A stretch of DNA of 64,000 nucleotides from an uncultured Kordiimonas sp. (GTDB lineage Bacteria > Pseudomonadota > Alphaproteobacteria > Sphingomonadales > Kordiimonadaceae), in the NCBI GenBank assembly GCA_947492375.1, contig CANLMI010000003.1, positions 372,001-436,000 of the forward strand, in the 5' to 3' direction. The notes beneath the pieces were generated by a model that saw only the letters and a list, made by a program, of their open reading frames with translations, was not told the DNA's origin and did no database searches. Below are positions 2,890 through 53,428 of this stretch, in pieces. The translations under genes were made by a program, and so were the position numbers. Position 1 is the stretch's first letter; each line of letters begins with the position of its first letter.

Positions 2890-3426
2890 TTATTGAGGCT
2901 GATTTCCATACGCTGTGTTATCGCAGCCGTTTTTAGCCATGACGGACTTCATTTGACTTCCTGACAAAGATGAAAAGTCATCAGAGTTAAAGGGCGTGAT
3001 GCAATACGCTGGGGGGCCATATGAAATACGCACTGTTTGAAAAACATTTTTATCAATAGTAAGCTCGATTGAAGTGGTATTAGACTTTGTTTCAAATTCT
3101 TCGAATTGGATATTAAGCATTGTATTACCGTTGAAGAGAATATGATATTTCAAACGCTCTTTGGTGTTCGGATCATAAGCAACATGACGTACCGAGCGGT
3201 TACCACTTTTGGTTGGAACCGCGACCTGATATAAGCCATTTGACATCAGGATCGCATTCCATACTTCATGAACGGGCCTTGTGTCTGTCGCGGGGCGCTC
3301 AAAATTGATCTGAATCCATTCGCCGGGATTGGCAAAATATAGGCTGGTTGGTGCATCAGCAATTACATAAGGGCTTGCTTTTACGCTTAAGGCAATCAGG
3401 GCAAAAAATATTGATATGATTTTCAT
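2890..3426 (-). CDS. Secreted protein of unknown function
   Basis: I do not recognise this 178-residue protein. I placed the start at the ATG at 3426, because GGAGAG lies about 8 bases upstream and the product then opens directly with a signal peptide (MKIISIFFALIALSVKAS). A longer GTG start at 3441 would overlap that Shine-Dalgarno. The mature part is rich in beta-strand-like sequence, with two cysteines near the C-terminus (YCITPF, NGCDN) that could form a disulphide in the periplasm. The leader and lack of other membrane segments point to a periplasmic or secreted protein. Confidence 0.7.
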   Translation of the reverse strand: MKIISIFFALIALSVKASPYVIADAPTSLYFANPGEWIQINFERPATDTRPVHEVWNAILMSNGLYQVAVPTKSGNRSVRHVAYDPNTKERLKYHILFNGNTMLNIQFEEFETKSNTTSIELTIDKNVFQTVRISYGPPAYCITPFNSDDFSSLSGSQMKSVMAKNGCDNTAYGNQPQ

Positions 3427-6821: not shown

Positions 6822-6851
6822 AAGAAAGGCCTGTATATACAGGCCTTTCTT
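6822..6851 (+). terminator. Perfect 30-nt palindrome, probable terminator of the M3 peptidase gene
   Basis: A perfect 15+15 bp palindrome with arms AAGAAAGGCCTGTAT/ATACAGGCCTTTCTT lies 35 bp after the peptidase stop. Its A-rich 5' arm and T-rich 3' arm make it able to act on either strand. The AT-rich centre would form the loop. Confidence 0.8.
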
Positions 6852-19278: not shown

Positions 19279-19305
19279 CTGCAAAATAAGGCGTCCATTA
19301 CACGT

Positions 19306-19330
19306 GGGTGACCAGATTGGCTGGTCATCC
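19306..19330. terminator. Hairpin between convergent genes
   Basis: GGGTGACCAG and CTGGTCATCC form a ten-pair stem (one G-T pair) around a five-base loop between the M1 aminopeptidase stop and the stop of the convergent HEXXH-TPR gene, which it overlaps. The T-run is poor, so bidirectional terminator function is plausible but not certain. Confidence 0.5.
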
Positions 19331-20863
19331 ATTTTCAGGGCCTTGCTCTATAGTGTCAGCGTTGAATAATGGCTGATAATATTCCTGATATTGTTTTTTA
19401 GCGTCGTCTGATGCAGCCCAGTCGATTAAAAGCTGCGCCTCTCTTCTGGCTTTCTCAAGGTCACCATTTTTCCATAATAGCGATATATGAATAGTCTTGG
19501 CATTAAAGTTATCAGGGGCAAGTTTGCGCGCCAGTTCGGCTATTTCAAGTACATTTGGCGTGACCTCTATGCCGTCATAGAAATAAAGCCGCGCATAGTC
19601 GAGGAGTGCGGGAACGTAATATTTGTCGGCTTTCAATGCCTTGGTAACAAGTGAGCGATATTCAGTTAATTCACTTCCCTGTAATTTTAGAGGATCTTTA
19701 CCGTGTGTGAATGCTCTGGATTGTATTTGCAGGGCAGGCGCATGAACCGGATTGTTTTTTAAAATATCCGTTGCATAAACCTTAGCCTGATCAGGATTAT
19801 TGTCATGTAAGGCAAGCTCTGCCAAATATATGCGCATATCATCCGGGCGAATGCCTGCTTCAAGGGCTTTTTCAAATGATTTTCGAGCTTTTTTAAATTT
19901 TTTTGCTCTATTGCCGGTAAGGTGCCTGGCTTCATCATGTTGAATATCTGCTTCTGTCTGCGACATTTCCCGAATGGTAATGTCAAAATCGGGCATACTG
20001 TTACTGAAGTCATATCCAAGATAGGCAAGCGATCCTTTTTTCCAATATGCGAGTAACTCATTCTCCATTTCTTTAAACGATTTTCCAAAGGCAGACTGAA
20101 AGGCAATATCATCATCAGCATTTGGTTCATTAAGGGCGAGCATATATTGATTTAGTGGTTCACGATATTCAGGTTTGTTATAAATATAATGGGTTAACAA
20201 CCAACCTTGAGCATATAAGCCATAAATTGCGTCAACCTTTCCTCTTTTACGTGAACGACCACGTTTGGGGTAAGCTGACCTTGCTCTGATGATATCTTCA
20301 ATTTTAACCCAATATTTTGGATCACGCAGATTAATGAAACGCGGAACAGCAGGTTCACCAATTTTTACCGTTTTTTCTTTGAAACTAATGGTACTGAGAT
20401 ATTCTCCAAATCCCTCATCAAACCAGACAGGATACCGAAAAGGGCTATAGAAATGAAGGATGTGATGCGAATATTCATGGAAAAGGATTTGTGTGCCTTT
20501 GAATTGCCAAACCTTTTTCCCATCTTGGAGAGAGAGTACTGCAACAGCGCGGTCATGGCGTTGACGATAAAACCCTAACATACTTCTAGTGGTTTTAAGT
20601 TGTTTGTTGAATTTTCGTGTGTAGCGGAAAGCATAAATTGTTAGAGGTGGTCTATTTTCAACACTGAGATCCAACCCTGTTAAGGCACCCAGTGTGAAGC
20701 GGAATTTTTCAAGGTCTTCAATGGTTTTTCTGGCTTTTTCCAAGTCCGCATCGGTTCGTAAAATGAAATGTTCGCTTTTGAGTTCTAGCCATTTATCTTT
20801 TGCATGTAGTGCATTGGTATTAATAAAAATAACAATAATTATGAAAATATGAAAATATTTCAT
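19325..20863 (-). CDS. Secreted HEXXH metallopeptidase-like protein with TPR repeats (paralogue A)
   Basis: The 512-residue product (ATG at 20863 after GGGGGT) has a signal peptide, then a peptidase-MA-like domain. It carries the gluzincin pattern HEYSHHILH followed by PVWFDEGFGEYLS, giving two His ligands, the catalytic Glu and a downstream Glu ligand. The C-terminal half is a run of TPR-like helices (AGIRPDDMRIYLAELALHDNN, APALQIQSRAFTHG). It should act in the periplasm or outside the cell, on an unknown target. A second copy with the same architecture lies at 23123-24619, on the same strand, across the hmp-nsrR locus. Confidence 0.85.
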   Translation of the reverse strand: MKYFHIFIIIVIFINTNALHAKDKWLELKSEHFILRTDADLEKARKTIEDLEKFRFTLGALTGLDLSVENRPPLTIYAFRYTRKFNKQLKTTRSMLGFYRQRHDRAVAVLSLQDGKKVWQFKGTQILFHEYSHHILHFYSPFRYPVWFDEGFGEYLSTISFKEKTVKIGEPAVPRFINLRDPKYWVKIEDIIRARSAYPKRGRSRKRGKVDAIYGLYAQGWLLTHYIYNKPEYREPLNQYMLALNEPNADDDIAFQSAFGKSFKEMENELLAYWKKGSLAYLGYDFSNSMPDFDITIREMSQTEADIQHDEARHLTGNRAKKFKKARKSFEKALEAGIRPDDMRIYLAELALHDNNPDQAKVYATDILKNNPVHAPALQIQSRAFTHGKDPLKLQGSELTEYRSLVTKALKADKYYVPALLDYARLYFYDGIEVTPNVLEIAELARKLAPDNFNAKTIHISLLWKNGDLEKARREAQLLIDWAASDDAKKQYQEYYQPLFNADTIEQGPENG

Positions 20864-36529: not shown

Positions 36530-36627
36530 TAGAGGAAAGCTCGTCTGCCTAGCCAAAATCGCACCGTTGGATGCACATTCTTTGATAAATTTTATGTTTT
36601 ACCGGCTTTGAAAACATGCAGAATACT

Positions 36628-36689
36628 CATTAATTAGATGTTTAGCTAATTATCTATTGACATTAATTAGATGATTAACTAAATATCTA
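36628..36689 (+). promoter_or_regulatory. Autoregulated promoter of the ArsR/SdpI-like operon: two 29-bp operator copies
   Basis: Two 29-bp direct repeats (36628-36656 and 36661-36689) match at 26 of 29 positions and start 33 bp apart, three helical turns. Each contains TTAATTAGATG, a CTAA, and a TAGAT/ATCTA dyad. A perfect -35 TTGACA (36657-36662) sits exactly between them, with a TAAATA-like -10 inside the second copy. This is what an autorepressor promoter would look like; the first gene starts 3 bp after the second copy. Confidence 0.75.
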
Positions 36690-36692
36690 ATC

Positions 36693-37094
36693 ATGAACAA
36701 AGTATTTAAAGCATTATCAGACCCAACTCGGCGCCGTGTCCTTGAATTATTGAAGCGCGGCCCGATGACTGCTGGTGAACTATCGGCAGAATTTGCAGTC
36801 TCAAAGCCAACAATGTCAGCGCATTTTTCTGTCCTTAAGGAAGCGGACCTTGTGGAGGCAACGAAGGTTGGCAAGGTTGTTACCTATCAACTGAAAATGT
36901 CGGTTCTGGAGGAAGCTCTGATGGGGTTTGCCAAAATATTTGGTATTCAGTTGATGGGTGACCTTGGAATTGAGCACATGGGCGATGAACACAGGCATGA
37001 TGAACACGGGCATGACCCAGAGACACTGAATACAAGAAAAGAACCAGGTGCAAAGACGCCGGGTCACAACAGCGACCTTAAACAGGAGGGATAA
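36693..37094 (+). CDS. ArsR/SdpR-type autorepressor with His-rich tail
   Basis: This 133-residue regulator has an ArsR winged helix (KALSDPTRRRVLELLKRGPMTAGELSAEFAVSKPTMSAHFSVLKEADLVEATKVGK), closest in style to autorepressors of the SdpR group. No metal-binding cysteine pair is seen in the recognition region. A His/Asp-rich tail (HMGDEHRHDEHGHD, partly a 15-nt tandem duplication at 36984-37013) follows and could bind metal. It is followed by an SdpI-like membrane protein 2 bp later, so the two are translated together, as in Bacillus sdpRI. Confidence 0.85.
   Translation: MNKVFKALSDPTRRRVLELLKRGPMTAGELSAEFAVSKPTMSAHFSVLKEADLVEATKVGKVVTYQLKMSVLEEALMGFAKIFGIQLMGDLGIEHMGDEHRHDEHGHDPETLNTRKEPGAKTPGHNSDLKQEG
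36984..37013. repeat. 15-nt tandem duplication in the ArsR-type gene
   Basis: GATGAACACAGGCAT is followed directly by GATGAACACGGGCAT, one change between them. The two copies encode a repeated Asp/His unit (DEHRH, DEHGH) in the C-terminal tail of the regulator. Confidence 0.75.
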
Positions 37095-39283: not shown

Positions 39284-41794
39284 ATGACACTTCCATCGCA
39301 GTCTACTATTAAACGATCCAAATCTTTTTCCGAACCATCATTAAATGCACGCTGGGCAAAACATTCCAAAAGGTCTGCAAAAACAGCACCTGATACGCAA
39401 ATATCTGATGCGCGACTGCCCGTTAGAAGAAAACCAGAGGTCGGTCAAAAGTCATATGTGAGGTGTAAACCGCAAATAGCGCGGAAGCAACGCGGTAGTG
39501 ATCTCGATACGGCAACTATGCTTCAGAAAATCGGAACCATTATTCAGATCGCTGTTTTGCTCTTTTCGCTTGTTTTTGCCTTTAGCACTGTGTCGGCACA
39601 GCCGCAGGAACGCCTGAACGCCAAGTCAAATAAGCCTCTCGGCGGCATGAAAATAGTGCCAGTCAGGTCTGCAAATGACCCTTTGCAAGGTGCCCGGTCT
39701 GCTGAGGGGCATGAAATAGGGCAACAAGAGGCCTTAGCCCCAATACTGCAAGCCCCGATACCGCAAGCACCTATCATACAAGATGCACTTTTGTTATCGA
39801 GCGAAATTTCGGTTGAGATCACCGGTATGATTGTCCACACAACCGTTAAGCAAACCTTCAAAAACCAAACAAATGACTGGATTGAAGGAATGTACAGATT
39901 TCCCCTGCCGGATCAGGCCGCGGTTGATAGCATGACAATGCTGGTTGGTAATCGGCGTATTATTGGCAGGATAAAAGAAAAAGAAGAAGCAAAAAAAACA
40001 TACAGAGAGGCGGTGAAAGCCGGGAAAAAAGCTGCGCTTTTGCAAGAACATCGGCCAAATATGTTTTCAACCCGTGTTGGTAACGTGGCACCGGGAGCGG
40101 TGATATCGGTTGAGCTTACTTTTCTTTCATACGCTTCGCAGAACGGAATGGTGTTTGACTGGGCGATGCCACAGGCGATTACACCGCGCTTTAATTTTGA
40201 TCAGCCGCTTATTGATGGGGATGGGGCTTCTGTTACGCCGAGTGGTAGGGCCTTATATACCAGCAATGTTTCCGGGGCGGGCAGAACAGTCGGTGAAGCA
40301 AACCCAACATCCTTTAGTGTTCACCTACAGGCAGGCACGCCCGTTAGAAACCTGCTGAGCAAAAGCCATGACCTTGCGGTCACAAGCTTTGGCCCTGGTG
40401 ACTATACTATTACCCTAAAGGACGGGATGATGCCTGCTGACCGTGACTTTAAACTCTCGTGGGAGCTGACGCCGGATAGCAGCGTTAAGCCGATTTTATT
40501 CAGGGAAAAGGGCCCTCTAATTGCGGGAGGAGAAGGTGAATTACACGAAAATGCCGACTATGTGTTGGGCTTTGTGCTGCCACCGCAGCAATCTGAAAGT
40601 CTGTATGTGGCGCCGCGTGATGTTGTTTTTATCATTGATACATCTGGGTCGATGGGGGGTGTTTCTATCCGGCAGGCGAAAACAGCGCTTTTGCATGCAC
40701 TTGACCTGCTTCGGCCTGAAGACAAGTTTGATATCATTGAATTTAACAGTCATCACACCCGTCTGTTTGGGAAAAGCGAACAGGTAAGTTCTGATGCACT
40801 GGCTCGCGCCCGCCATTTTGTAAGCCGATTGGATGCCAGCGGTGGCACAAATATGATGCCTGCGCTCGATAGCGCTCTCACTGATGCTTATGATCCTGAA
40901 GCAGAACGGCAAATAGTGTTTCTAACGGACGGCGCTGTTGGACATGAAAGCCAGATGTTCAAGCTTGTAGAAGAAAAGCTTGGGCAGGCACGATTGTTTA
41001 CTGTCGGGATTGGCAGTGCTCCAAATGGCTGGTTTATGCGTAAGGCCGCAGAATTTGGCCGAGGCCTTCATATCCAAATCAGCGATGTTGCAAAAGCTGG
41101 AGAAGAGCTTGCAAGCCTCTACAGTGCAATGGCGGTTCCAAGTCTATCGAATCTTGATTTAAAATCCGAAGTTTCCGCAGATATTTCCAATAGCCAGAGT
41201 GACAGTGACGGGACCAGTGACAACGATGGGAAGAACCACTTTATTGAGAGCTATCCTGCCAGATTGCCTGACCTTTACGGAACAAGGCTTGCAGTTTTCA
41301 TTGCACGGGTTACCGAAGGCGGTAGGCTTGCCCCGCTAACGCTATCCGGTAAGCAACCAACGGGTGAGGTGTGGCAGGCAAGCCTGAACTTTAAAGATAT
41401 TCCTGAAGGTAAGGGAATTGCCAAAATGTGGGCACGCAAGAAGGTTGAAAGCCTGATGGATGCACGCGTGCGCGGTATGAACCCGGATGCAGTGCGTCAG
41501 GAAATACTGGATGTAGCATTAAGCCATGAAATACTAAGCCCCTTTACAAGCTTTGTTGCCGTGGAAGAGGAGGTTTCAAGGCCGGACGCCGACACGCTTA
41601 AGCATACGAGGGTTAAGGGCAATCTGCCGCATGGTACAGAAACCAAAAAGTTTTTTGGGCCACGCACTGCAACACCATTATCTTTCAAATTTATGAGTGG
41701 GTTATTGGCACTGTTTATCGCGCTTATTGGATTGTTGGCACTGCGATATCCACTATCACACGCCCGCTCGTTCACCGCGAGAAAACTACCATGA
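39284..41794 (+). CDS. Marine proteobacterial sortase target protein (VIT and vWA domains)
   Basis: This 836-residue protein combines a VIT domain (about 160-290), a vWA domain with MIDAS motif DTSGSMGG at Asp452, and a C-terminal sorting signal. The signal is GPRTATP at 792-798, followed by a hydrophobic helix and a basic tail (ARSFTARKLP). It is the lone-target type known from marine proteobacteria and is displayed or processed outside the membrane by the sortase next door. The start is ATG 39284 after GAGG; a long basic stretch then precedes the hydrophobic signal (IQIAVLLFSLVFAFSTVSAQ). A shorter start at 39521 remains possible. A 15-nt repeat (39740-39784) encodes Pro-Gln-Ala units. Confidence 0.92.
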   Translation: MTLPSQSTIKRSKSFSEPSLNARWAKHSKRSAKTAPDTQISDARLPVRRKPEVGQKSYVRCKPQIARKQRGSDLDTATMLQKIGTIIQIAVLLFSLVFAFSTVSAQPQERLNAKSNKPLGGMKIVPVRSANDPLQGARSAEGHEIGQQEALAPILQAPIPQAPIIQDALLLSSEISVEITGMIVHTTVKQTFKNQTNDWIEGMYRFPLPDQAAVDSMTMLVGNRRIIGRIKEKEEAKKTYREAVKAGKKAALLQEHRPNMFSTRVGNVAPGAVISVELTFLSYASQNGMVFDWAMPQAITPRFNFDQPLIDGDGASVTPSGRALYTSNVSGAGRTVGEANPTSFSVHLQAGTPVRNLLSKSHDLAVTSFGPGDYTITLKDGMMPADRDFKLSWELTPDSSVKPILFREKGPLIAGGEGELHENADYVLGFVLPPQQSESLYVAPRDVVFIIDTSGSMGGVSIRQAKTALLHALDLLRPEDKFDIIEFNSHHTRLFGKSEQVSSDALARARHFVSRLDASGGTNMMPALDSALTDAYDPEAERQIVFLTDGAVGHESQMFKLVEEKLGQARLFTVGIGSAPNGWFMRKAAEFGRGLHIQISDVAKAGEELASLYSAMAVPSLSNLDLKSEVSADISNSQSDSDGTSDNDGKNHFIESYPARLPDLYGTRLAVFIARVTEGGRLAPLTLSGKQPTGEVWQASLNFKDIPEGKGIAKMWARKKVESLMDARVRGMNPDAVRQEILDVALSHEILSPFTSFVAVEEEVSRPDADTLKHTRVKGNLPHGTETKKFFGPRTATPLSFKFMSGLLALFIALIGLLALRYPLSHARSFTARKLP
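39740..39784. repeat. 15-nt tandem repeat in the sortase target gene
   Basis: Three units of CCAATACTGCAAGCC-like sequence encode PILQA, PIPQA and PIIQD in the linker after the signal region. Divergence rises along the array. Confidence 0.7.
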
Positions 41795-42798
41795 TCAAAC
41801 GCTTTTGGATGTTGAAGGCAGGGTTTTCGAATGTGGGGATGACCGGTTTACACTCCCTTTTAAACCGGATTTCCTCAGATTGGGGGCTTGGGCGGCTGTT
41901 TCATTGCCTGATGAAATTTCGCGCTCAAGGTAAAAAAGGGGAGGGCGCTACTGGCGCCCTCTCTAGCGTCTTCTCTGGCGTCTTTTTTAGCGCTTCTCCT
42001 AGTGTCCGCTCTGCTGCTGCTCGCCCTTCTCATTTGCTTCAGGGCCATATTGTAACAGACCATAAGGTATTTTTAGTTAAGGGCATGCCGCGCCGCCGCA
42101 CTCCTATGACAGTTAAAGTTGTCGTGTGCTTGTTGCTCGCTTTTACGGGATATCAGTGGTTTGGTGCCGGATTAATCGCTTTTAAGGCATGGCTTGCCCC
42201 CATATTGATCGAACATGCATGGGAGCAGGATATGAGCGCGAATGCCACTATAAGCGCCAGTATAAATGCCGGTGTAAATACCGGTGTAAATACCGGTGTA
42301 AATACCGGTGTAAATACCAGTGTGCTTTCCAGTTTGGATGCGGGCTTTGCCCTTGCCCTCACTAAACCCTGGCCCTGGGCGGATACCTACCCGCAGGCAA
42401 AGCTTACATGGTTACGATCGGATGGTTTGAATAGGCACCCGCAAGGGCATCGTTATATTTTAAAAGGAACGGATATGGCAGCTCTTGCCTTTGGGCCTGT
42501 GCATCTTGAAACCGACGGGGCGGATGTTCTTTTTGGCCATAGGGAAACCCATTTCAACATGTTAAAGGATGTCCGGAAAGGTGATCATTTAACGCTAGAG
42601 GGGCGATCTGGCCATGTTCAAACCTATGAGGTTAAAGATATATGGGTTGCCCATATGGATGAAATGTACGCACCAGCGGTGGGCGATGCCCGCAAGGGAT
42701 TGATGTTGGTCACCTGTTATCCTTTTGAGGCGATTACAGTATCTGGTGTGATGCCCGAAGAGCGTTATGTGGTTTGGGCAGAACCAGTGTTATCTTGA
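41791..42798 (+). CDS. Class GN sortase with unusual N-terminal extension
   Basis: The ATG overlaps the TGA of the target gene (ATGA), so the two are coupled. The catalytic triad is visible: His250 in FGHRETHF, Cys309 in LVTCYPFEAI and Arg325 in EERYVVWA. A TM anchor lies at about 110-135. Class GN sortases are usually near 200 residues; this one is 335 because of a Ser-rich, repeat-derived N-terminal extension of ~98 residues and a Gly-Val-Asn-Thr insert at ~160-178. If translation instead began at ATG 42085 the extension would vanish, but that ATG has only an AAGGG too close to it. It processes the adjacent vWA protein at the inner membrane. Confidence 0.9.
   Translation: MIKRFWMLKAGFSNVGMTGLHSLLNRISSDWGLGRLFHCLMKFRAQGKKGEGATGALSSVFSGVFFSASPSVRSAAARPSHLLQGHIVTDHKVFLVKGMPRRRTPMTVKVVVCLLLAFTGYQWFGAGLIAFKAWLAPILIEHAWEQDMSANATISASINAGVNTGVNTGVNTGVNTSVLSSLDAGFALALTKPWPWADTYPQAKLTWLRSDGLNRHPQGHRYILKGTDMAALAFGPVHLETDGADVLFGHRETHFNMLKDVRKGDHLTLEGRSGHVQTYEVKDIWVAHMDEMYAPAVGDARKGLMLVTCYPFEAITVSGVMPEERYVVWAEPVLS
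41954..42013. repeat. 12-nt degenerate tandem repeat in the sortase extension
   Basis: Five units of GCGTCTTCTCTG-like sequence run within the N-terminal extension of the sortase, giving a Ser-rich segment (ALSSVFSGVFFSASPSVRS). Identity between units is moderate. Confidence 0.6.
42247..42323. repeat. 12-nt tandem repeat in the sortase linker
   Basis: About six units of GGTGTAAATACC-like sequence encode a Gly-Val-Asn-Thr repeat between the TM anchor and the catalytic domain. The central four units are identical, so copy number probably changes often. Confidence 0.9.
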
Positions 42799-45382: not shown

Positions 45383-46528
45383 TCATTGTCCTGCAAATAA
45401 CTCCCGTGCCTTATCAACAACAGGGGTCTTACCACCACCGTGATTTGAAAGAACGACAATAATCAAACCCGTGTTTGGGTATATATCCAGATTAGCATCA
45501 ATGCCGATAAAGCCGCCACTGTGGCCCACTCGCAGGGTTTTATCGCTTCCGTGCACCCTAAAGGCGAAACCATATGCCTCGTTATGAAATTCTGATTTTG
45601 GGGTGATCATAAGTTTGGTATTCTTTGCTGTTAGAAATTTATTATTGATGAAACTGAGTGCGAACTTGTGAAGATCATGCACTGTTGAATAGCAACCACC
45701 AGCGGGGCCGCCTTTTACTGGATGCCAGAGGATATTGGTTTCCCAGCCAGTTTTCTTATCGCTGTTTGCATTATATCCAATTGCCAGATTTTTTATGGGC
45801 TGGTCCATCTCAAAACATCCAGTGTTTTTCATGCCTGCAACTTTATAAAGCGTGTTATCCAAATGATCGAAATAGCTTTCGCCCACAACGCTCTCAATCA
45901 CTGCACCTAATAGAAATATGCCAGTATTACTATAGCGATAGGATGTGCCGGGTGTGAATTTGGCCTTGTCAACAACCACGAAGGGTTTGAAATCACGAAG
46001 GTGACGATAGTGGTTTTTGGCGCCGTTGAAAAACTCTTCGGTGAAATAACTACCAAGGCCAGAGGCGTGAGTCATCAAATGCTGAATTTCGATTTGGCTA
46101 CTGGTATCATGGGACAACCATGTTGCATCCAGGTATTTGGATAGCTTGTCGTCGAGTGATATGTCTCCGGCCTCAACAAGGCGCATGATCGCGGTTGTGG
46201 TGAACATTTTATTAATGGACCCAAGGTTGAATTTGGTATCAATTTTATTGGGGACATTAAAGCGTTTGCTGGCAAACCCGCCTGCATATTCGAAAAGTAT
46301 TTTATCATCTCTCGCCACTAATACTGTGCCTGAAAAGCCAGTGTAATTGTCGGGCGCAGCTTTGTTGGTTTTGATAAAGTCAAGGAGTTGTCTGGCTGCG
46401 GGGACGAGCTTTGTGCTGTTATCAATTGGTTCTGCATGTAATCGCGGCATCAATAAGGTCAGCCCGTCTGTAGGTACTATAAATATTAGGAATAAGTAAA
46501 CTATGAAAATGTGATTGATTTTACCCAT
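45383..46528 (-). CDS. Beta-lactamase-fold serine hydrolase (class C-like), secreted
   Basis: This 381-residue protein has a signal segment and a class C beta-lactamase/esterase domain. The catalytic SINK motif is at 104-107 (Ser104, Lys107), with YRYSNTG supplying the second motif and RVGHSGG the third. Members cleave esters, D-peptides or beta-lactams in the periplasm. An AT-rich gap lies upstream. Its C-terminal sequence (DIYPNTGLIIVVLSNHGGG) is repeated in a broken copy at 51.5 kb. Confidence 0.92.
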   Translation of the reverse strand: MGKINHIFIVYLFLIFIVPTDGLTLLMPRLHAEPIDNSTKLVPAARQLLDFIKTNKAAPDNYTGFSGTVLVARDDKILFEYAGGFASKRFNVPNKIDTKFNLGSINKMFTTTAIMRLVEAGDISLDDKLSKYLDATWLSHDTSSQIEIQHLMTHASGLGSYFTEEFFNGAKNHYRHLRDFKPFVVVDKAKFTPGTSYRYSNTGIFLLGAVIESVVGESYFDHLDNTLYKVAGMKNTGCFEMDQPIKNLAIGYNANSDKKTGWETNILWHPVKGGPAGGCYSTVHDLHKFALSFINNKFLTAKNTKLMITPKSEFHNEAYGFAFRVHGSDKTLRVGHSGGFIGIDANLDIYPNTGLIIVVLSNHGGGKTPVVDKARELFAGQ

Positions 46529-49348: not shown

Positions 49349-50761
49349 TTACTGTGCCTTAAAGGCGCGGTGGCGGATTGTTTCAAGGCTGTCTGTGATC
49401 AGCATTTGCCCGTTGCGGTAGACAGTGCGCAAGTGGTTTTGTCCTTCGTTTCGGCTGGCTACTGCACTTTCTTTGCTGTCTGCACGCACGGTTTTATACT
49501 CGTCGTTTTCCTTGATTAATTTCAAGATGCCGCGCTTTGATGCCTTGCCGCGGTCGGTAACCGGGTCCTTAAAGACGTCACGCATTTCGCCGGCTACTTC
49601 TACGGCCGAGCATTTCATGGCAAATTTCTGAGTATCGCGGTTACATTGCTGCAATAGGCCAGCCCCCATACCGAATACGATATTCTCTGCCGATAGGCCT
49701 TCTTCTTTTATGCGTTCCAGAATAATGCCGATTGTATCTGGGGTGATCCCGTCGCCCTGTAATACACGGATATGATCCGGTAACAGCTTGTAACCTTTAC
49801 TATTGGTGCTGGAGCCAAATTTTGCCATCAGCTTTTTGATGATTTCTATGGGTGTTTCCACAGGGTCACCGCTATCGGGCCGAATAGTCAGTCGGGTGCC
49901 ATTTTTTGCATTTTCCAGGATTTTTGCTTTCAGGTTTTTCCCGAAAATTGTTTCCACAGCGTTATGAATATCGTAGCTGTCGGCAACAATGGAAATGATA
50001 TCACTGCCGGCAAACTGCTCCAGCATATTTTGGTAAGCGGCTTCTTCGCCGGATTTGGTCCAGCTTGTCATGGTGCTGTGCTCGGATGCGGGGACAGAAA
50101 AGCCTGCCATCGGCTCCCGGTAATATTGCTTGGCAGCGACAAGGGCACTCATGGTGTCGGTGCCTCTGAAGTTAATCAAGTGTGCGAGGCCGCCGAGCGC
50201 TGCGCTTTCCTCGGATGATACACCGCGCGCACCGAAATCATGCAACATAAACTGGGCGGTTGCCTCCGCTTCCGCATCTGAGGTTTCATCTAGATACTTC
50301 AGGATCGTTTTCTTGGCATAAAAACTGTTGGTTGCCACTGTCGTTGGGTACCAGATGGCCCGCAAAAGTGTGGTTTCAATAAAGTTAGTAAGCCAATAGC
50401 AGGCAGGGTCAGTATTTTTGACTTGTAGCATCACATTGCCCGTGGGGATCAGCTCGCCCTCTGGCGCAGCTTCGATTTCCAGTGGCAGGAAGCCGTTGTG
50501 CTCCCGAATGATATGTTCCCACCCTTCGCGGTTACAAGGGATGCCGTGCTGATTACAGAACCATGCAGATTCGTCCACATCCGCAAGGGTGACCGGGTTT
50601 TTTAAAACCTTGAAAAGCCATGCCTGTAGCCCAAAGAAAATGGTGGCAGGGTGCTTCCCGCCCCGGCTTTCCACATAAGAGCTAACCATTGTGGTGTTTG
50701 GTGGATATTGCAAATAGTGACTGTGTTTATAACTATCTGTATCCAGAATAATATTTGCCAC
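49349..50761 (-). CDS. nadV: Nicotinamide phosphoribosyltransferase
   Basis: The 470-residue protein starts with GTG after AGGAGA. It matches NAMPT/NadV through its N-terminus (ILDTDSYKHSHYLQYP), FGARGVSSEESAALGG, the catalytic-His block PASEHSTMTSW, and the ribose-phosphate loop RPDSGDPVETP. It converts nicotinamide and PRPP to NMN, allowing one-step salvage to NAD in the cytoplasm. The family also includes phage-borne and plasmid copies, but no phage genes are near here. Single gene. Confidence 0.95.
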   Translation of the reverse strand: MANIILDTDSYKHSHYLQYPPNTTMVSSYVESRGGKHPATIFFGLQAWLFKVLKNPVTLADVDESAWFCNQHGIPCNREGWEHIIREHNGFLPLEIEAAPEGELIPTGNVMLQVKNTDPACYWLTNFIETTLLRAIWYPTTVATNSFYAKKTILKYLDETSDAEAEATAQFMLHDFGARGVSSEESAALGGLAHLINFRGTDTMSALVAAKQYYREPMAGFSVPASEHSTMTSWTKSGEEAAYQNMLEQFAGSDIISIVADSYDIHNAVETIFGKNLKAKILENAKNGTRLTIRPDSGDPVETPIEIIKKLMAKFGSSTNSKGYKLLPDHIRVLQGDGITPDTIGIILERIKEEGLSAENIVFGMGAGLLQQCNRDTQKFAMKCSAVEVAGEMRDVFKDPVTDRGKASKRGILKLIKENDEYKTVRADSKESAVASRNEGQNHLRTVYRNGQMLITDSLETIRHRAFKAQ

Positions 50762-50919
50762 CCACGTTCTCCTAGGCCTTCAGTGTCGCTATTCATATAA
50801 GGTGAAAAGCAAGGGGCGTCTATTGCTGTTTTACTATGCACGGTTATTGGCTTGGTGATGTGAAAATATGAAAGGGCCGCTGAATGGAGAGCGCTTAAGG
50901 ATTACCGCTTTCATAGGAA

Positions 50920-50985
50920 TGACGAACCGACCTCAATCGTCATTCCAGATTTGATCTGAAATCCAGAAACACAAGCGTTTTCGAA
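50920..50985. repeat. Dispersed intergenic repeat (REP-like)
   Basis: AATGACGAACCGACCTCAAT, CGTCATTCCAGATTTGATCT and GAAATCCAGAAACACA follow each other here. The second half matches the element near 49.2 kb, and its reverse-frame translation reads SGFQIKSGMT, a hallmark of such repeats. Confidence 0.6.
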
Positions 50986-51150
50986 AATTAAACTACTGGC
51001 CCTTATATTCAGTATAGGTCGTACAATAAAGTATGTGCTTATGGCACTGATTCTGTTTTTATTTTGTTCTCGTATGTTTTTTACAGTAATAGCAATACAT
51101 TTTGTATTGTTCACGAACGGAAATCGTACATTTTGTGTTTGTCCAGTGGG

Positions 51151-51171
51151 TTTTCCACAGGCTTATCCACC
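51151..51171. other. Pair of DnaA-box-like 9-mers
   Basis: TTTTCCACA and TTATCCACC lie 12 bp apart on the same strand, each one base off the DnaA consensus TTATCCACA. Two boxes alone do not make an origin, and no replication gene is near, so I list them only as a DnaA-binding possibility. Confidence 0.3.
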
Positions 51172-51239
51172 ACTAGAAAAGATAACGAGTTTAATTGAGA
51201 CAAACGCTTGCCGGAGCCTAGTAAATATGCTTTTGTATA

Positions 51240-51346
51240 TAGGTGCTTGACGTAATAAGCGTTGCAAACCCCTTCCAAAAGGGTTTGCAAGCACGGTATA
51301 TATCTTTTGCGGGATATACGGGGCAGGATCCAACCTGTCCCTTTTT
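51240..51346 (+). ncRNA. Candidate structured small RNA
   Basis: Three hairpins follow one another in ~100 bp of gene-free DNA: TTGCAAACCC/GGGTTTGCAA (51262-51290), GTATAT/ATATAC (51296-51319), and a terminator stem GGGGCAGG/CCTGTCCC with five T (51320-51346). An alternative stem GTGCTTG/CAAGCAC (51243-51249, 51288-51294) competes with the first. No coding frame fits well. The family is unknown to me and transcription is unproven. Confidence 0.5.
51320..51346 (+). terminator. Terminator of the candidate small RNA
   Basis: An eight-pair stem (one G-T pair) with a six-base loop ATCCAA, followed by TTTTT. No gene ends just upstream on this strand, so it probably ends a non-coding transcript. 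Confidence 0.7.
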
Positions 51347-51444
51347 AATAGCCCTTGTTATTATCGATTTAATAACAAAAGTTATTACTGTACGAATTTT
51401 TCGCACAATAGTGCGTATTGGTCAATTTCAAAATGGGAAATATC

Positions 51445-51565
51445 CTATTTAATTCGCTTTCTTTCAAATAATTCCTGCGCTTTCTTAATCAGTGCGTCGA
51501 TGCCGCGGCCTAGGTTCGATAGTACGGCAATAATCAGCCCTGTGTTTGGGTAAATATCCAAGCGT
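51445..51565 (-). pseudogene. Remnant of a beta-lactamase-fold hydrolase gene (3' end only)
   Basis: The reading frame ends LDIYPNTGLIIAVLSNLGRG and then IDALIKKAQELFERKRIK, clearly homologous to the C-terminus of the intact hydrolase at 45383-46528 (LDIYPNTGLIIVVLSNHGGG). Upstream of this piece the similarity is lost and a new frame follows, so only the last ~40 codons survive. It is the trace of a deleted or rearranged paralogue and not a functional gene. Confidence 0.8.
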
Positions 51566-51652
51566 GATTTATAACTGATTTTCAAACAACACACTTTCAA
51601 TCTTTTATTGTTTGAACCTATAGTGTTGGCAACATTGATGAGGGAGCGGAAG

Positions 51653-53428
51653 ATGATTAAAAAACTGGGGTTGGGTGTGGCAGTGATTGCCTTATCGTTC
51701 CGCGTGTTAATGGGCGGTGCGATTGCTGACGACGGGGCTGGCAATGAGGCTGGCAATGGGGCTGACGGTAAGGCAAGTTTTCATGCGCTCCTAAGCGAGC
51801 ACTGGGCGCGTGCCAATGCTGAACAGATATTTTTCCGTACCGATCCTGATGCCTTCCGGCCTAACGGGAAGCTGCCTGAGTTTACACGTGACGCCCGCGC
51901 GCGGCGGCAGGCGTATAACGAGGATGTGCTGGAGCGCTTAAAGGGTATTGATGAGGCGGCGCTATCGGGGCAAGACCGGATCAGTTATAAGCTTTTTAAA
52001 TATGAGCGCGAAACCGAGGCCGAGAGCTACCGCCAGCCTGATCATCTGTTCCCGATCACCAAGCTGTTTGGGTATCATACCTATTTTGCGAACGCGCCCT
52101 ATAATATGTCGTTTAGCACACAGGCTGATTATGATCGGTATCTTGTAAGCCTTGCGGACTTCGCGCGTTATAACCGTGAAAATATTGACCTTCTTAAAGA
52201 AGCGACCGTGCGTGGCTTCACCCATTATTGCGCTTCGATGCGAGGCTATGAAGCAACGATTAGCATGCATGTGGTTGATGACGCCGCTGAAAGCAATCTT
52301 TACCACCCGTTTACTGTTTTCCCGGCAACTTTTACAGACGCAGAAAAAGCGGACTTGGCGGCCAAGGGGAAGGCGCTTGTAGCGGATAGTATTATCCCTG
52401 CTTACCGTGAATTGTATGAGTTTTTTACTGAGGAATATATGCCCACATGCCGCACTGGTGTTGGTATTACAAGTGTTCAAGGCGGTGATAAATATTATCA
52501 GTATTTGATCAATTATTTCACAACAACCGATATGAGCCCCCGCGAAATTCACGAACTGGGCCTTGCAGAAGCCAAACGCATTCGCGGTGAGATGGAGGCG
52601 ATTATACGCCAAGTTGGCTTTGATGGTACGTTTAAGGAGTTTCTGAACTTCCTGCGCACTGACCCGCGCTTTTTCGCGAAAAACGGGCAGGAATTGCTTG
52701 AGAAAACAGCCTTTATCGCCAAAAAGATGGACGGTCAGATGCCGCGCTTTTTCGGGCGCCTTGCGCGCAATACCTATGAAATCAGGGGCGTGACGGGCCG
52801 CGGTGCTTATTATGTATCTGGAAGCGGTGATGGCCGTACACCGGGCACCTATTTTATCAGTGTTGGGGATTTGAAATCACAGCCGCTTTATAATCTGGAG
52901 GCGCTTTCGTTGCATGAAGGTGTGCCGGGGCACCATCACCAGACAGCAATCGCGTTAGAGCTGGATGTGCCGGAATTTCGCAAAACCCTGTATCATTCGG
53001 CGTTCGGCGAAGGCTGGGGGCTTTATAGCGAGGCGCTTGGGAAAGAGGCAGGGTTCTACACTGACCCCTACAGCGATTTCGGCCGCCTGACGTATGAGAT
53101 GTGGCGCGCTAACCGCCTTGTGGTGGATACAGGCATGCACGCACTTGGTTGGTCACGCGAGCAGGCAATTGCGTATATGTTAGAGAGTTCCGCCCTTACA
53201 GAAGGCGAAGTAACGGCAGAGATCGACCGCTATATCACATGGCCTGCGCAGGCGCTTTCCTACAAAATTGGCGAACTTAGGATCAAGGCCATGCGCGCCA
53301 AGGCTGAAAAAGAACTCGGTGCTAAGTTTGACCTCCGCGCTTTCCATGACACGGTTGTTGGTAACGGCTCGCTTGCGATAGCCGTGTTGGAAGAAATCGT
53401 TGACGAATGGATTGCGGGGCAGAAGTGA
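51653..53428 (+). CDS. DUF885 family secreted protein, metallopeptidase-like
   Basis: The 591-residue protein (ATG at 51653 after GGGAGCGG) has a signal peptide followed by a repeat-derived linker (GAGN, EAGN, GADG). The DUF885 domain shows the family hallmark LHEGVPGHHHQ and SALTEGEVTAEIDRYITWPAQALSYKIGEL near the C-terminus; the HEGxPGHH block resembles a zinc site. Members are thought to be metallopeptidases, but the activity is not settled. Two short overlapping frames follow the stop. Confidence 0.92.
   Translation: MIKKLGLGVAVIALSFRVLMGGAIADDGAGNEAGNGADGKASFHALLSEHWARANAEQIFFRTDPDAFRPNGKLPEFTRDARARRQAYNEDVLERLKGIDEAALSGQDRISYKLFKYERETEAESYRQPDHLFPITKLFGYHTYFANAPYNMSFSTQADYDRYLVSLADFARYNRENIDLLKEATVRGFTHYCASMRGYEATISMHVVDDAAESNLYHPFTVFPATFTDAEKADLAAKGKALVADSIIPAYRELYEFFTEEYMPTCRTGVGITSVQGGDKYYQYLINYFTTTDMSPREIHELGLAEAKRIRGEMEAIIRQVGFDGTFKEFLNFLRTDPRFFAKNGQELLEKTAFIAKKMDGQMPRFFGRLARNTYEIRGVTGRGAYYVSGSGDGRTPGTYFISVGDLKSQPLYNLEALSLHEGVPGHHHQTAIALELDVPEFRKTLYHSAFGEGWGLYSEALGKEAGFYTDPYSDFGRLTYEMWRANRLVVDTGMHALGWSREQAIAYMLESSALTEGEVTAEIDRYITWPAQALSYKIGELRIKAMRAKAEKELGAKFDLRAFHDTVVGNGSLAIAVLEEIVDEWIAGQK
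51734..51769. repeat. 12-nt tandem repeat in the DUF885 gene
   Basis: Three units of GGGGCTGGCAAT-like sequence encode Gly-Ala-Gly-Asn-type tetrapeptides right after the signal peptide. Confidence 0.8.

Follow-up and report, generated by a model that had tools for sequence, protein, structure and literature searches.

Does a strong intrinsic terminator in an 891-bp gap between two divergent genes mark the 3′ end of an RNA with a life of its own, of a leader belonging to the gene downstream, or of nothing that functions? A sequence-only reading of the 64-kb stretch of DNA analysed here (the window) had proposed a candidate terminator-ended small RNA with competing stems, as would suit a regulatory switch. 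Judged by fold, terminator and place, the small RNA holds up as the best reading of the locus, whereas the switch does not, as its stems coexist. The candidate and its neighbours are as follows.

49349..50761, minus strand: nicotinamide/nicotinate phosphoribosyltransferase, the divergent neighbour (Pfam NAPRTase and NAMPT_N)
51240..51346, plus strand: candidate small RNA of about 107 nt, whose fold beats shuffles and whose 5′ end is approximate
51320..51346, plus strand: intrinsic terminator, GGGGCAGG-ATCCAA-CCTGTCCC-TTTTT, with an 8-bp stem (6 G-C pairs) and a 6-nt loop
51653..53428, plus strand: DUF885 protein, the downstream neighbour (Pfam PF05960, E 1.7e-153)

The divergent gene lies 478 bp from 51240, and no plus-strand gene stands upstream of the candidate within the gap. 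On the other side, 306 bp separate the end of the terminator from the DUF885 start at 51653 (261 bp if an upstream TTG start is used); short open reading frames (ORFs) aside, the DUF885 gene is the next on this strand, which bears out the earlier statement that the strand ahead is gene-free for about 300 bp. The stretch 51028-51447 has a GC content of 0.37, lower than that of 50762-51027 (0.43) and of the window (0.46). A DNA search found the candidate as a single copy in its own genome.

The candidate ends in a Rho-independent terminator of a kind that is rare in this DNA. Under a strict rule (a perfect stem of at least 7 bp with at least 5 G-C pairs, a loop of 3-8 and T at 4 or more of the following 5 positions), such sites occur at three distinct places of the 64-kb window: at 19305-19331, at 6827-6846, where both strands scored, and at 51320-51341. 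The first two are found 27 and 40 bp past the ends of plus-strand genes; the third falls in a gap between divergent genes, and hence no listed upstream gene needs it. When the 891-bp gap was shuffled 300 times, one shuffle contained any strict site and none a site equally strong. A looser scan of 1.8 kb counted 5 terminator-like sites where 2.7 (sd 1.7) were expected, so that only the strength of the terminator at 51320-51346 is unusual. On the minus strand there is no T run after the hairpin, making the terminator one-sided. Most simply read, a transcript that starts in the gap would end at this terminator.

Fold of the candidate RNA

The minimum free energy (MFE) of the candidate is -41.3 kcal/mol, compared with -26.8 on average for its shuffles (sd 3.25; z -4.46), and none of 200 shuffles folded as low. 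Set against the window as a whole, the fold is unusual (about 0.1%), and others equal it: after GC correction, 5 of 4734 sliding 107-nt windows, at four places and counting both strands, were equally extreme, two of the five sitting within long ORFs. The bounds of the candidate had been picked by the sequence-only reading and lie off the sliding-window grid, which somewhat favours the candidate in this comparison. Ensemble folding resolves the region upstream of the terminator into the following elements, all on the plus strand.

51243..51294, plus strand: closed three-way junction, from ensemble pair probabilities, with about 2 bp contested at the junction
51243-51248/51289-51294, plus strand: outer stem of the junction, GTGCTT/AAGCAC (pair probabilities 0.73-0.99)
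51249-51253/51259-51263, plus strand: small hairpin of the junction, GACGT/GCGTT (pair probabilities 0.77-0.99)
51264-51271/51281-51288, plus strand: hairpin of the junction, GCAAACCC/GGGTTTGC (pair probabilities 0.97-1.0 at its base)
51296..51319, plus strand: middle (second) hairpin, weak and AT-rich, with several near-equal registers and pair probabilities of at most 0.63

The earlier description of structured units leading up to a clean plus-strand terminator agrees with this fold. What does not agree is the idea of a GTGCTTG/CAAGCAC stem that forms in competition with the first hairpin, since in the ensemble the two coexist as parts of one three-way junction, in which no unpaired bases lie between the three stems; the switch reading is for this reason unsupported. 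Constrained folding leads to the same view. Forbidding the outer stem raised the energy to -36.7 kcal/mol and forcing the longer hairpin raised it to -38.1 kcal/mol, from the MFE of -41.3 kcal/mol; the forced hairpin costs 3.2 kcal/mol and even then 4 bp of the outer stem are kept. Neither the ensemble nor constrained folding of the candidate yielded a pair of structures that exclude each other at comparable energy, and the ensemble contained no mutually exclusive terminator/antiterminator pairing, the terminator pairs standing at 0.99-1.0. We therefore reject a regulatory switch with competing stems. This is a useful correction: the stems taken for a switch make up one composite junction.

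The locus in related genomes

It is informative to compare the gap with the corresponding place in G001, the sole same-genus genome compared, in which both flanking genes are kept and the block that carries the candidate is absent.

50973..51464, no strand assigned: block without counterpart in G001, 492 bp against 73 bp (about 51028-51447 by eye)
51445..51579, minus strand: relic of a beta-lactamase-family gene, covering its C-terminal end and matching at 51466-51579, with the frame continuing to a stop at 51445

In a blastn comparison with G001, aligned pieces at 50918-50972 and 51465-51516 flank the block, the second of them weak (E 0.013). The relic resembles the C-terminus of an intact paralog at 45383-46528 in the window (61% identity over 38 aa, E 4e-12, from a single comparison), and the order in G001 is the phosphoribosyltransferase gene, a weak trace of the relic (locus L016, about 3031-3082; DNA E 0.013) and the DUF885 gene. 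From these matches, a whole beta-lactamase-family gene probably once stood between the candidate and the DUF885 gene in an ancestor.

Two further observations concern palindromic DNA. A palindrome-like element occupies the same place in both species, at 50918-51027 here and at 2903-3020 of locus L016 in G001, where it reads TCATTCCGGA...TCCGGAATCC; its part at 50918-50972 aligns to G001 at 84%, and the remainder was compared by eye. Elsewhere in the window, very strong AT-rich palindromes at 36600-37093 lie directly upstream of a short gene that starts near 36690 and that by eye is like an ArsR-type repressor. These palindromes are probably operator sites and not RNA.

Beyond the genus, the phosphoribosyltransferase is present in 13 of 59 genomes. 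Among the neighbourhoods of this gene scanned with 1.5-kb flanks (loci L002-L012, without L013-L015), the DUF885 gene was seen by eye only beside L002, which is the own genome, and L003, which is G001, and the terminator only at L002. Relatives of the DUF885 protein occur at 16 loci (L030-L045) of the named genomes with identities of 35-75%, and so no near relative exists among these genomes. Closest are those from two Marinicaulis MAGs (72-75% identity), from a Lysobacterales MAG (70%) and from Haliea-like bacteria; the DUF885 protein of an Emcibacteraceae MAG stands at 45%. It is possible, going by these relationships, that the DUF885 gene was horizontally transferred; a plasmid search with the DNA of the gene gave no match.

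Searches for the candidate itself returned its own genome. Rfam gave no match at gathering score in the whole window, and with E values up to 10 the gap showed four matches, all on the minus strand, below their gathering scores and at chance level, of which GlsR5 (E 9, minus strand) is one that overlaps the candidate. A DNA search of 59 genomes found the own genome and no match in the 58 related ones. In a class-wide DNA search with scoring limited to two first-look candidates per genome, 11 of 385 genomes (the own included) had matches at E of 0.01 or below; what matched in the ten others is limited to short pieces (22-55 bases) lying outside the candidate, of which one touches its last base and none covers it. 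A covariance model, which is in effect one sequence and has limited power for diverged relatives, gave under strict filters hits at E of 1 or below in 5 of 98 genomes, namely the own genome and four at chance level (E 0.1-0.64), and order-wide a hit at E of 0.1 or below in 1 of 296 genomes, the own one; these two genome sets overlap. When the model was rerun on seven sources with E values up to 10 allowed, nothing appeared in L016 (G001) or in L018, a locus of the own genome, and the four weak loci came up again at E 0.003-0.02, values that are circular given that these loci had been picked for the re-search. By these searches the candidate is an orphan, so far of one species.

The absence of the block from G001, the failure to find conservation and the position of the block in decaying DNA that holds a gene relic are all compatible with hairpins that serve no function, that is, a terminator left from a lost gene and a remainder that folds by chance. 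We consider this unlikely, if not strikingly so: the shuffles of the gap and of the candidate described above produced no equal terminator and no equal fold, and terminator and junction are both intact.

The same comparison bears on whether the candidate is a leader of the DUF885 gene that acts as an attenuator or is riboswitch-like, starting before 51240, mostly ending at 51346 and sometimes reading through. It lies on the same strand ahead of that gene, and a structured RNA does precede the terminator, which is the likeness to riboswitches and attenuators. However, riboswitches and attenuators use mutually exclusive stems, and here the stems coexist and the ensemble lacks an antiterminator; the next gene lies beyond 306 bp and a gene relic, and matches to Rfam families in the gap are chance matches only. 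The relic, which lies between the two on the other strand and has its weak trace in G001, speaks against a leader, and it lends support to the earlier view that this is not a plain leader of the DUF885 gene. In G001, moreover, the DUF885 gene occupies the corresponding position with the block absent. A leader thus seems to us improbable.

Coding potential and upstream signals

Two ORFs of 69 aa touch the candidate.

51243..51452, plus strand: ORF of 69 aa from GTG, crossing the candidate and its terminator (codon score 0.04)
51041..51250, plus strand: ORF of 69 aa from ATG, ending within the candidate (codon score -0.19)

Either could in principle make the locus a short mRNA, with the hairpins as the 3′ end of the message in the case of ORF 51041-51250 or with the reading frame running across them in the case of ORF 51243-51452. 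Codon scores, for which each gene was omitted from its own training, lend this some weight: the score of ORF 51243-51452 is borderline, as low as that of 13 of 199 gene stretches and is equalled by none of 398 off-frame stretches, and that of ORF 51041-51250 exceeds 383 of the 398 (15 being equally high). On the other hand, just one of the 199 gene stretches scores as low as ORF 51041-51250, and the codon scores of minus-strand ORFs in the gap range from -0.35 to -0.04, several of them above that of ORF 51041-51250. Shuffling the gap 1000 times gave an ORF of 60 aa or longer in 667 cases, and in 38 cases such an ORF scored at least 0.04. Neither ORF matched a Pfam family, ORF 51243-51452 has no relative among the 58 other genomes and would pass through the terminator, and by eye no Shine-Dalgarno-like sequence precedes either start. 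A short mRNA is accordingly a poor prospect, and the candidate, to judge from its sequence, is probably non-coding.

Upstream of the candidate, two kinds of signal were considered.

51195..51224, plus strand: weak promoter-like match TTGAGA-18 nt-TAGTAA (8/12), placing a start near 51231; too weak to serve as support
51151..51171, plus strand: DnaA-box-like 9-mers in tandem, TTTTCCACA at 51151-51159 and TTATCCACC at 51163-51171, by sequence match

No promoter match of 9/12 lies within 100 bp upstream of the candidate. Matches of that quality occur only at least 130 bp upstream, at 51080-51108 and 50981-51009, and would imply an RNA longer than the candidate. The tandem 9-mers, about 70 bp upstream, resemble the DnaA-box consensus. 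Sites of this kind with at most one mismatch number 24 in the window against 16 expected, a count that 5 of 100 shuffles reach. With at most two mismatches, the tandem pattern recurs at one other place in the genome (L018, about 1512-1540), upstream of a dnaB gene with a Pfam DnaB N-terminal domain. We read the DnaA-box-like pair as no more than a hint. A replication origin in the window was rejected, as the GC skew is positive throughout.

That the candidate belongs to a small element, mobile or extrachromosomal, for example as a control RNA of a lost replicon, is highly improbable: the block, at a site conserved in both species, is present in just one of them, has the lower GC content given above and contains the DnaA-like 9-mers, which are also covered by the sole phage match (32 bases, in a gene annotated as a replication initiation protein), but that match is at chance level (E 0.5), the plasmid DNA search and two exact patterns run against viral contigs gave no match, the candidate is single-copy, no replication gene was recognised among its neighbours, and the gap's best inverted repeat, rejected as the end of a mobile element, pairs 18/23 and is equalled by 42 of 100 shuffles. 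We would give just as slim a chance to a young, species-specific regulatory RNA with a linkerless three-way junction, newly arisen or acquired at a decaying locus and possibly controlled by DnaA through the two DnaA-box-like sites; if this were true, control by DnaA would tie the candidate RNA to the replication cycle.

A candidate trans-acting small RNA

The reading that we favour, at somewhat better than an even chance, is a stand-alone non-coding small RNA of about 105-120 nt, found in one species, with its own transcription and acting in trans. It would be transcribed from a promoter within the 478 bp that separate 51240 from the divergent gene, its 5′ end would form a compact three-way junction, followed by a weak hairpin and then the intrinsic terminator, and it would not be translated. 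In its favour are the z score of the fold, the rarity and one-sidedness of the terminator and the gene-free gap upstream, together with the relic that precedes the DUF885 gene and the lack of a Pfam family or a relative for the crossing ORF. It is weakened by the lack of a 9/12 promoter nearby and of a homolog, hence of conservation and covariation, by the 5 of 4734 windows that fold equally, by the weak middle hairpin and by a crossing ORF whose codon score falls within the low range of genes.

Small RNAs of such build usually act by base pairing in trans, and the size of the candidate and its possession of a terminator are typical of trans-encoded small RNAs. By analogy, the candidate RNA is probably a trans-acting base-pairing regulator. 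It would pair with its targets in trans, and the most open long loop available for this in the predicted fold is the 9-nt CUUCCAAAA at 51272-51280. The complete set of 7-nt complements of this loop gave one match in the start regions of the 42 genes of the window, just inside the coding part of the gene at 41791-42798, and this single match may be due to chance; GGAAG occurs in the region from -25 to -1 of 3 of these 42 genes. The closest known kind is the trans-encoded small RNAs of Alphaproteobacteria, for example those of Sinorhizobium (PMC3927594), the likeness being one of size and terminator.

The host looks like a member of a little-studied alphaproteobacterial lineage, and a literature search on small RNAs in Kordiimonas turned up one paper, which by its title concerns coral-associated bacteria. 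If the candidate is transcribed, it would be one more orphan small RNA and a candidate lineage-specific regulator.
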